A DNA stretch of 36,836 bases from Actinomycetota bacterium (lineage in GTDB: Bacteria; Actinomycetota; Aquicultoria; Aquicultorales; JAMCWL01), in the NCBI GenBank assembly GCA_023481285.1, contig JAMCWL010000067.1:1-36836 (forward strand), written 5' to 3'. This document shows, piece after piece, positions 10,312 to 12,917 of the stretch. Made by a program: the position numbers and the translations under genes. The first letter of the stretch is position 1. Every line of letters begins with the position of its first letter. The notes under the pieces were generated by a model, which made no database searches, was not told the origin of the DNA, and saw nothing but the letters and a program-made list of their open reading frames with translations.

Positions 10312-10735
10312 ATGCGGGGAGTATGGATGGGTAGTGAGTGCTTCTAGCTATCAGCTAAAACCTCTTGTGCGATGCTTAGAGAAGATAAGGATGCGCCCTA
10401 CTGGTACCCTGGTACCTTAGTTTCTTGGTTTCTTGGTTTCTTAGCAACCCCATCCAACGCGAATAGCGCCTCATGCATCCAAGCCTTATAGCGGCGGACG
10501 GCGGACTGCCGACGGCGGACGTTTATCCGCGGATAGCGCCTCCAATAAGGGCAAAGAGGTTCCAAGAAACTAAGAAACCAAGAGGCTAAGAAACCAGAAG
10601 AGCGTGTGCGACGAGGCAAGAATATTCGATAACCGCCAGGTGAGCTCAGAGCTCAGAACTCAAGGCTGGAAGCACCTGTGCTGATGATCAAGCAGGATTT
10701 AAGGGGGTAAAGCACGGGTCACCAAACGTCCGTGC
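10312..10735. other. Gene-free stretch with tandem and inverted repeats
   Basis: No credible gene. A repeat block covers 10416-10605: TTTCTTGG-type tandem units at 10421-10444 are mirrored by AAGAAACTAAGAAACCAAGA-like units at 10564-10595. One exact pair of arms is TCTTGGTTTCTTAG (10431-10444) with CTAAGAAACCAAGA (10570-10583). Between the arms, CGGCGGAC recurs several times (about 10493-10520). A long hairpin of about 170 bases is possible. The block lies downstream of selB and upstream of bioY. Confidence 0.6.
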
Positions 10736-12637
10736 TCATGCCTGGTCGGCCAGGACCCTGACATCCTTAACGCGCCTGGTAAATCCATCCTCGTCGAGTT
10801 GTTCCAGAATGGTCTGGAGTGGGTTGCGCCCGATGCCTAAGAGATCTCGCGCCTGTGAAAGAGAGATTGCCCCTTCGGTTAAGAGATGTGACAGCAGGAT
10901 GTTTCTAACCTCTTCAAAGGCGCTCCTGCTCATGAAGCTCATATCGTTGAAAAGGACGATCTCGCCCTCGGACCCCATGAACCTGAGCACGCCTTCCACC
11001 TCGGACGCGCCTCGTGGGCAGAGATCTTTAAGGGAAACCAGCCGAACCGGCGCCAGCGTCCCGGAGTAGAGCTCCCTGGCGGCTGCCATAACTTCGGATT
11101 GCCGGGCGGTAAGCTTTACCGTGCGTCCGCGGGCCACCACCTCGTCCCTTTCAAAATCCACCTTGCCCGCGTTCGCCAACCTATCAAGCGCCGCTGCAAA
11201 GAGAGGAGACTCTACGTCAAAAGCAAGCTTGCCCCTCAGTTCGATGATCCTCATGCGCCGTCGCAACGATAACCTCTCACACTCCTCAAGCAGTGTTTTC
11301 TCGATGATCGCCGCCAGCTCGGCAAAGCATTCAACGTGGACCAGGCGATCCTCGATGAGCATGGCTCGACAGGCTTCAACAAGATCGGAGGCGACCTCTT
11401 CAATCCGCTCGGACGTCAGGCCGCAGAGGGGAACCAGATCGAGGGGACACGCCGTTCTGTAGCCGAAAGATCTCAGCGCATCCTCAACAAAACTCGCATC
11501 ATCTCCATCGACCAGAGCCTTGAGCCTGGAGAGGAGTAGGGAATCGAACCGGCGATACTTCTTCGCCGCTACTTGAAGGATCACCCCTCCCCCGACCGTC
11601 CGGGCTGGGCTCAACGACCTGACGATAAAACGATCTCCGGGAAAGACCACCAGCGCCTCCTCGCATCTGAGCTGAATGAAAGCGCTCTCACCGGGCTCCA
11701 ATGATTCTCCATCCATCAGCACCATCCGGCAGACCAGTTCTTTGGTCCCCGCGTAAACTTTGATTCTCTCTCGCTGTTTTATGGACCGCTCCGCTGAAGA
11801 GAGCAGGCTTAAAAGGGCATTGACCATATGGGAGGAGGATACGCTCCCTGGACGGGCGATGACGACGCCCCGGGAGAGACTGTCCGGCTTGAGGCCGGCG
11901 AGATTGACGCCCGCTCGCTGCCCGGCGAAGACGACCTCCCGCTCGTCCCTGTGAGACTGTATCGATCTGGCTCTCGCCTCGACGCCCGCCGGGTATACGG
12001 CCACCTCTTCCCCGACGCCAAGGGTCCCCCCGGCGACGGTGCCCGTCACCACGCTCCCCCTGCCGGAAGCCTGGTAAACCTTGTCGACCGGAAGCCGGAA
12101 GACCGTGCCCGGCCTCCTCTCCGGTAGCTCGCTCGCCAATCTCCGGAGGTGTTCTACGATGCTCTCTGCGCCCTCACCGGTCCTGGCGGAGAAACCGACG
12201 ATCTCCGCTCTCTCCAGGAAGCTTCCCTCAACCAGCTCGGATATCTCAGCTTCCGCCATCTCGCGCGTCTCCGCGTCGACCAGGTCGATTTTTGAGAGAA
12301 CGACGAGCCCCTTTTCCACCCCGAGAAGGCGAAGGACGTCAAAGTGCTCCCGAGTCTGGGGCATCACACCGTCATCGGCAGCGATGACGAGGAGCGCCAG
12401 GTCGATGCCGGTGACGCCGCAGATCATATTGCGGACAAAGCGCTCGTGCCCCGGAACGTCGACGAAGTCGAGTACCGTGCCGTCCTCCAGGGCGAGGTGG
12501 GCAAAGCCGAGATCGATCGATATCCCGCGCTTCTTCTCCTCGATCATCCGATCGGTATCGACGCCCGTTAAGGTCATGATTAGAGAGGTCTTACCGTGAT
12601 CGACGTGACCGGCCGTTCCCACCACAATCGTTCGCAT
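10736..12637 (-). CDS. selB: Selenocysteine-specific elongation factor SelB
   Basis: A 633-residue GTPase that delivers Sec-tRNA to the ribosome at SECIS-marked codons. The G domain has GHVDHGKT (10-17), the SelB-typical switch RGISIDLGFA (37-46), DVPGH (60-64) and SKID. Domains II and III follow (SGRGSVVTGTVAGG near 192-205), then about 270 residues of winged-helix repeats that end in SLSQARDLLGIGRNPLQTIL, the SECIS-binding end. Length is normal and no domain is lost. AGGGG stands before ATG 12637. The gene lies about 130 bases downstream of the selC-like tRNA on the same strand; selA and selD are not in the window. Confidence 0.95.
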   Translation of the reverse strand: MRTIVVGTAGHVDHGKTSLIMTLTGVDTDRMIEEKKRGISIDLGFAHLALEDGTVLDFVDVPGHERFVRNMICGVTGIDLALLVIAADDGVMPQTREHFDVLRLLGVEKGLVVLSKIDLVDAETREMAEAEISELVEGSFLERAEIVGFSARTGEGAESIVEHLRRLASELPERRPGTVFRLPVDKVYQASGRGSVVTGTVAGGTLGVGEEVAVYPAGVEARARSIQSHRDEREVVFAGQRAGVNLAGLKPDSLSRGVVIARPGSVSSSHMVNALLSLLSSAERSIKQRERIKVYAGTKELVCRMVLMDGESLEPGESAFIQLRCEEALVVFPGDRFIVRSLSPARTVGGGVILQVAAKKYRRFDSLLLSRLKALVDGDDASFVEDALRSFGYRTACPLDLVPLCGLTSERIEEVASDLVEACRAMLIEDRLVHVECFAELAAIIEKTLLEECERLSLRRRMRIIELRGKLAFDVESPLFAAALDRLANAGKVDFERDEVVARGRTVKLTARQSEVMAAARELYSGTLAPVRLVSLKDLCPRGASEVEGVLRFMGSEGEIVLFNDMSFMSRSAFEEVRNILLSHLLTEGAISLSQARDLLGIGRNPLQTILEQLDEDGFTRRVKDVRVLADQA

Positions 12638-12663: not shown

Positions 12664-12767
12664 CTTCTAGTCTCTTAGCCTGCTGGCTTCTTGGTCTCTT
12701 AGAACTTCTAGACCTTCTAGAGCTTCGTCTAAGGGACTAAGAACCCAAGAGACTAAGAGACTAGAAG
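12664..12767. repeat. Long inverted repeat between the tRNA and selB
   Basis: CTTCTAGTCTCTTAG (12664-12678) and CTAAGAGACTAGAAG (12753-12767) are perfect 15-bp arms. Inner imperfect arms (TTCTTGGTCTCTTAG near 12688; CTAAGAACCCAAGAGA near 12737) and a central TCTAGA-rich stretch allow a hairpin over about 100 bases. The outer arm ends at the base next to the tRNA discriminator, so the structure begins where the mature tRNA ends. It may serve as a terminator or processing signal between the tRNA and selB. Confidence 0.85.
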
Positions 12768-12856
12768 AGGGGGCAAGGGGAATCGAACCTCCTCCGACCT
12801 TACTAGGGCCGGCCAACGGGTTTGCAGCCCGCGAAGCGCCCAGCGCCTTTGCCCCC
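12768..12856 (-). tRNA. Selenocysteine-type tRNA with Cys anticodon GCA
   Basis: An 89-nt tRNA with a long variable arm. The 8-bp acceptor stem is GGGGGCAA (12856-12849) with TTGCCCCC (12776-12769). Between it and the anticodon stem lie only 16 nt: a stem AGGCGC/GCGCTT with a three-base loop, and no U8. The anticodon stem GCGGG/CCCGT encloses CTGCAAA, so the anticodon is GCA (12825-12823). The variable arm has a 6-bp stem CCGGCC/GGTCGG with a 7-base loop. The T loop is TTCGATT on a stem GG-A-GG/CCCC, i.e. four pairs with one bulged A. The discriminator is U (12768) and CCA is not encoded. The shape and place beside selB are those of selC; anticodon and U73 are those of tRNA-Cys. Confidence 0.9.
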
Positions 12857-12888: not shown

Positions 12889-12917
12889 ATTATATAAGGT
12901 GGGGACCGCACTGTAAA
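12889..12917 (-). promoter_or_regulatory. Promoter of the selC-like tRNA
   Basis: On the minus strand TTTACA (12917-12912), 17 bases, TATAAT (12894-12889). The predicted start is about 25 bases before the tRNA 5' end. This indicates that the unusual tRNA is expressed, possibly together with selB. Confidence 0.7.

Follow-up and report, generated by a model that had tools for sequence, protein, structure and literature searches.

A cysteine tRNA in a selenocysteine-tRNA body, encoded beside a divergent SelB paralogue in an Actinomycetota genome

The window (the whole stretch of DNA analysed, 36,836 nucleotides) is contig C60 of the Actinomycetota genome G000, an assembly of 2.17 Mb in 115 contigs that is 92% complete. 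Its minus strand carries a tRNA gene of the kind known as selC* and, 131 bases downstream, an intact gene for a SelB paralogue, selB*. The features of the locus are:

12889 to 12917, minus strand: sigma-70-like promoter, TTTACA-17-TATAAT (consensus bases at 11 of 12 positions; chance alone would give 0.4 such sites in the region)
12768 to 12856, minus strand: selC*, a tRNA-Sec-shaped tRNA-Cys(GCA) (ARAGORN, Rfam, covariation; model R1, 108.9 bits)
12835 to 12847, minus strand: D arm, 5-bp stem and 3-base loop (structure, covariation; 6 bp and 4 bases in canonical tRNA-Sec)
12823 to 12825, minus strand: anticodon GCA, with G34 at 12825 (identical across GCA homologues)
12794 to 12812, minus strand: variable arm, 6 bp and 7-base loop (structure, covariation)
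12777 to 12792, minus strand: T arm, four pairs (GGAGG/CCCC) with a bulged A at 12790
12768, minus strand: discriminator U73, the Cys identity base (as in the normal tRNA-Cys of the genome, but not in its Ser and Sec tRNAs)
12664 to 12767, no strand assigned: imperfect palindrome between selC* and selB* (inverted repeat I2; fold of the gap)
10736 to 12637, minus strand: selB*, a 633-aa SelB paralogue with EF-Tu-like domains and four winged helices (Pfam; tree; AlphaFold, pLDDT 88; E. coli SelB 5lzb, TM 0.80)
10751 to 10927, minus strand: fourth winged helix of SelB* (WHD4, residues 571-629), which in SelB binds SECIS, with Asn605 in place of the canonical Lys (Pfam, alignment, AlphaFold)

The tRNA gene begins with G1 at 12856 and its last acceptor base lies at 12769, followed by U73; CCA is not encoded. 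The 8-bp acceptor stem is followed by A rather than U, and the anticodon stem has 5 bp. ARAGORN names the minus-strand gene (12856-12768) tRNA-Cys(GCA), and Rfam assigns it to tRNA-Sec (55.1 bits; cut-off 47). An earlier note on this DNA had recommended both kinds of fit, and its description of a GCA anticodon and U73 in a Sec-shaped tRNA is borne out by the two programs and by the structure. In an alignment of nine homologous genes, standard pairs make up 98.7% of paired cells, every helix is supported, and both sides of the pair have changed at 12 of 28 pairs. The covariation score is 0.379, against 0.153 in shuffles, with none of 500 shuffles equal or higher. The cloverleaf that the note had drawn (8-bp acceptor, compact D arm without U8, 6-bp variable arm with a 7-base loop, bulged T stem of four pairs) is thus supported by covariation over nine genes, and the good promoter that it had seen upstream is likewise present. 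An assembly or sequencing error at 12825, against which the same note had warned, is excluded, since G34 is constant in all GCA homologues.

Several features distinguish this tRNA from tRNA-Sec. The G73 that SerRS recognises in both tRNA-Ser and tRNA-Sec (PMC7609411) is absent, its place at 12768 being taken by U73. The D stem of 6 bp and D loop of 4 bases expected for SelA are replaced by 5 bp and 3 bases, and the anticodon is GCA instead of the usual, although not absolute, UCA. The tRNA has the features that mark selC* tRNA-Cys: a long variable arm, an 8-bp acceptor stem, U73, GCA, and a 4-bp T stem with a bulged A (51a). It is therefore a selC* tRNA-Cys, with Cys identity (U73, GCA) in a Sec-like body; we take tRNA-ReC to be another name for the same kind of molecule. 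Assignment as an allo-tRNA (8/4 or 9/3 form, Ser identity) was considered and ruled out, as the discriminator is U73 and not G73.

The remainder of the genome contains ordinary machinery for both amino acids. A canonical tRNA-Sec with UCA and G73 (C20:18345-18436, 74.9 bits) closes a full Sec operon on one stretch of contig C20, in the order selD-yedF-selA-selB-selC(UCA). An ordinary tRNA-Cys with U73 lies on contig C61, and one full-length CysRS is encoded on contig C10. A dedicated cysS* beside the window's selC* was sought and rejected, there being none near the locus and only a single CysRS in the genome. The search of the genome that the earlier note had proposed thus located all of its targets (a second selC with UCA, selA, selD and the normal tRNA-Cys). 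Given a separate canonical tRNA-Sec and Sec operon, the window tRNA is not the organism's tRNA-Sec, and selC* is not its route to Sec. As that note had foreseen for a genome with a canonical UCA selC and a complete Sec pathway, the gene is a side gene where normal Sec insertion is concerned. Of the two functions it had offered, a Cys tRNA that mimics selC agrees with the U73 and GCA shared with the organism's own tRNA-Cys, with the 5-bp rather than 6-bp D stem, and with the existence of a family of such genes.

The protein encoded beside selC* is the second SelB of G000, the housekeeping SelB being the copy on C20. The earlier note had placed the tRNA beside selB; the adjacency is real, but the neighbour is a divergent paralogue that had gone unrecognised. 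SelB* shares the domains and fold of canonical SelB, with EF-Tu-like domains and winged helices, and the closest structure to its AlphaFold model (mean pLDDT 88) is E. coli SelB on the ribosome (5lzb). It differs in descent and at specific positions. In a tree of 69 proteins (24 SelB*, 43 canonical SelB and two Nitrospirae SelB*), the 24 SelB*, six from Actinomycetota and 18 from Desulfobacterota, form one clade (SH-aLRT 100) apart from the 43 canonical SelB. The two Nitrospirae proteins represent a separate duplication of independent origin. Within the tree, the SelB* of G029 adjoins a Desulfobacterota sequence, which suggests that transfer between phyla may have occurred.

Members of the SelB* clade are recognisable by G at position 243 (24 of 24; A in 42 of 43 canonical SelB), N at 273 (24 of 24; D in 41 of 43) and mostly M at 258 (20 of 24; D in 38 of 43). 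In WHD4, Lys605 is present in 43 of 43 canonical SelB and in none of the SelB* that have that region; the window protein has Asn605. This lysine follows a conserved arginine of the helix, as an alignment with the M. thermoacetica chain 1wsu indicates, and we take that arginine to be a main SECIS contact. With the WHD4 lysine lost, SelB* may not use ordinary SECIS elements, and the changed fourth winged helix suggests that its signal would differ from them. The charged residues of the Sec pocket, D185 and R241 (D180 and R236 in E. coli), are kept in 24 of 24 SelB*; at the neighbouring R181 position, the window protein has Lys. With D185 and R241 retained, the sequence gives no obvious sign that the preference has shifted from Sec to Cys.

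Genes for selC* are present in 29 of the 397 Actinomycetota genomes searched: 27 at 72 bits or more, together with G024 (60.8 bits) and G031. The covariance model built in this analysis gave the 27 genomes and G024; G031 came from the Rfam model. WhiB, which points to Actinomycetota, is encoded in 15 of 60 genomes of the phylum, although the window's own class contributes none of the 15. Matches of family f23, at about 61-65 bits, were left out because the two examined were canonical UCA tRNA-Sec, the rest being judged by family and score. Among 297 genomes of Desulfobacterota, the phylum of Thermosulfurimonas, 30 carry selC* at 71 bits or more, with anticodon GCA or UCA. The same kind of tRNA occurs in Nitrospirae, a Clostridia MAG and Thermosulfurimonas, each with canonical tRNA-Sec elsewhere in the genome. 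In six Actinomycetota genomes (G000, G013, G016, G027, G029 and G037) an intact selB* directly follows selC*, and in two (G014 and G025) the adjacent selB* is decayed; in the remaining 21 of the 29 there is no selB beside it. Where SelB was counted genome-wide in those without an adjacent selB*, only canonical SelB was found, and none in G006. The partner tRNAs of the 18 Desulfobacterota SelB* have GCA or UCA anticodons, and the switch between the two maps to essentially one branch within the SelB* clade, a weakly supported placement.

In the 97% complete genome G006 (locus L138, G006:C18), an intact selC* was observed, and searches of that genome for SelB, SelD and canonical tRNA-Sec found none.

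The form of the T stem varies with the presence of SelB*. All eight Actinomycetota selC* with an intact or decayed selB* have a bulged T stem of four pairs, whereas the 21 without selB* have room for five pairs, with a mismatch in G024 and G204 by inspection. Counted by family, the bulge occurs in six of six with selB* and none of six without (p = 0.002; the families are not fully independent). In Desulfobacterota, every selC* with an adjacent SelB* has the bulged four-pair stem; among the others, five pairs are present in six and the bulge in three (L212, L213 and L215). The Nitrospirae partner tRNA has an unbulged five-pair T stem. A strict link between bulge and adjacent SelB* consequently holds in Actinomycetota and is broken by these three loci and by Nitrospirae. 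From these patterns, a 12-bp branch with a bulge would appear to fit SelB*, and a 13-bp branch canonical SelB.

For the 131 nt that separate selC* from selB*, the computed fold has an energy of -62.2 kcal/mol (z -5.9). As a separate observation, imperfect palindromes with related CTAAGAGACTAGAAG-type units lie on either side of selB*, at 12664-12767 and 10394-10604.

Neighbouring genes were compared across loci. Double-cubane-cluster reductases with their activase, Hdr/Mvh genes or selenium genes (selD, yedE, yedF, a Se/S carrier) lie near 16 of 25 selC*-selB* loci and near none of 10 other tRNA loci, a comparison that is descriptive, the reference genes having been picked from these loci and one of the 25, L236, having no adjacent SelB. 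In the window itself, none of the double-cubane, Hdr/Mvh or selenium genes lies near selC*. In G013, which belongs to the window's class, a reductase-activase pair lies directly upstream of selC*. A search for the recoded target among the genes neighbouring seven UCA selC*-selB* loci found none, selD being the only one with an in-frame TGA.

Pairs of selC* and selB* are already known from other bacteria, where they probably place Cys at Sec-marked codons. According to a review (PMC7609411), Mukai et al. (2017) found selB* beside selC* only in Syntrophobacterales and Desulfobacterales. The window pair agrees with theirs, as described there, in the Sec-like body, U73, the GCA/UCA anticodon, bulge 51a, an adjacent second selB and a canonical Sec system elsewhere. 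It differs in that the review places selC* in Firmicutes, Thermodesulfobacteria, Nitrospirae and Proteobacteria, whereas the window is from Actinomycetota, and in having no cysS* nearby and a single CysRS in the genome. A second review (PMC11415595) describes the tRNA-ReC of Desulfotomaculum nigrificans (Vargas-Rodriguez et al. 2018), likewise a Sec-like GCA tRNA-Cys in a genome with a Sec system. That tRNA reads Sec UGA codons as Cys, with SelB rather than EF-Tu as its delivery factor. Recoding in D. nigrificans was shown with SelB, whereas in the window the tRNA is accompanied by a dedicated SelB* whose fourth winged helix is altered. The same review describes the Aeromonas salmonicida tRNA-Sec (Mukai et al. 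2016), which has the same Sec shape and GCA anticodon; it carries Sec and reads Cys codons, unlike the window tRNA with its U73 and a coexisting canonical UCA tRNA-Sec. Relative to the two reviews, the new elements are the occurrence in Actinomycetota, the single SelB* clade that spans two phyla and has lost the lysine, and the correspondence between T-stem form and SelB*; we claim no priority for the phylum.

On balance, we think it probable that CysRS loads selC* and that SelB* delivers the Cys to signal-marked codons, with UGA a likelier target than UGC/UGU. We infer the charging, delivery, codon, signal and benefit from the gene itself, its structure, identity bases and context, and the SelB* clade. 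The single CysRS would load selC* with Cys, and the long variable arm and long acceptor branch would keep the charged tRNA off EF-Tu. SelB* would then bind Cys-selC* and place its Cys at a codon that an RNA hairpin further downstream singles out. This codon would most likely be UGA, read by GCA through a third-position mismatch, with UGC/UGU as the second choice. As a UCA tRNA is unable to read UGC/UGU, and as GCA and UCA have switched within the SelB* clade, a shared UGA target is the simpler story. The benefit may be that certain proteins with Sec UGA codons are finished with Cys when Sec is short. The presence of selC* without SelB* in 21 Actinomycetota genomes, including G006, means that SelB* is not indispensable for every selC*.

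More tentatively, and with the balance of our judgement against it in its full form, SelB* and selC* could constitute a second, orthogonal recoding channel, with its own tRNA geometry (the 12-bp bulged branch), its own factor and a non-SECIS signal, that places Cys at chosen codons and has moved from phylum to phylum as a unit of two genes.

A special case of the favoured mechanism, to which we give a modest chance, is that selC* serves as a start-up aid for selenium use: SelD is itself UGA-encoded, which leaves a cell that lacks Sec-tRNA unable to produce it, and selC* would put Cys at the selD UGA and so break the circle. The SelD active site is encoded by an in-frame TGA in G000 and in seven other genomes examined, selD lies near selC* at four Actinomycetota and three Desulfobacterota loci, and SelD of the UGA type occurs in 15 of 15 genomes with selC* and 15 of 24 without (60 phylum members; Fisher p = 0.007, not corrected for kinship). 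Nevertheless, the selD of G000 sits in the ordinary Sec operon, away from selC*, many genomes with UGA-type selD have no selC*, and the idea was formed after the data had been seen.

The chance is rather small that SelB* delivers Cys only at the cognate codons UGC/UGU with a hairpin, for example to exclude Sec, leaving the protein sequence unchanged and affecting fidelity or rate. GCA is cognate to these codons, and Cys-rich redox enzymes (double-cubane reductases, Hdr/Mvh, formate dehydrogenase, NiFe-hydrogenase) are found in 16 of 25 SelB* neighbourhoods; yet ordinary tRNA-Cys would compete, and the UCA tRNAs that accompany the same SelB* clade could not read UGC/UGU. We regard it as improbable that selC* serves general translation through EF-Tu as a minor Cys isoacceptor, with the Sec-like body and selB* as relics. 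Its persistence with a decayed selB* (G014, G025), with none at all (21 genomes) and where no Sec machinery was found (G006) is what such a history would leave. Compensatory changes, however, maintain the Sec-like fold, the T stem follows SelB*, the selB* of the window is intact 131 bases from the tRNA, and the studied homologue does not use EF-Tu (PMC11415595). The other function offered in the earlier note, a true tRNA-Sec with a Cys anticodon that SerRS and SelA would turn into Sec-tRNA, for SelB* to insert Sec at UGU/UGC, is very improbable: despite an Rfam tRNA-Sec score above cut-off, the retained Sec-pocket residues and such recoding in A. salmonicida (PMC11415595), U73 stands where SerRS needs G73, the D arm is short, and a canonical UCA tRNA-Sec with its own selA, selB and selD is present in G000; the other genomes checked agree.

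The favoured mechanism aside, the locus extends the range over which the selC*/selB* pair is known. SelB* represents an old, separate branch of the elongation factor with a changed RNA-binding end, and the shape of its partner tRNA varies in step with it. Should SelB* respond to an mRNA signal of its own, two programmed recoding channels would operate side by side in bacteria. Further, selC* bears on how cells with a selenoprotein SelD restart selenium use, for which it offers a concrete test case.

Several related loci were observed outside the window. Two Cloacimonadota MAGs (L239, at G061:C16:255001-275000; L091 and L094) carry a Sec-shaped tRNA with a GCA anticodon and G73. The only further tRNA-Sec matches in G061 are weak, scoring at most 44 bits, and the four of them examined are Ser or Leu tRNAs. 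The single SelB (L239 17216-19168) and a SelA-like gene share the contig of the GCA/G73 tRNA, which is a candidate for insertion of Sec at Cys codons. In the Clostridia genome G064 (L063-L064 region, L110), two matches to tRNA-Sec(UCA), at C6:15735-15829 and C6:7088-7180, are separated by about 8.6 kb on a single contig; the latter, whose acceptor stem is broken, is perhaps a partial copy. In families f3, f5 and f10 (L068, L076, L077, L143), selC* lies near a UGA-type selD and a conserved gene row comprising a TIM-barrel protein (Pfam AP_endonuc_2), a 271-aa protein without a Pfam or NCBIfam match, and a phosphoglycerate mutase. Finally, in Desulfobacterota G625 (L225 5194-6504), selC*(UCA), selB*, a second CysRS and a UGA-type selD stand in one row.
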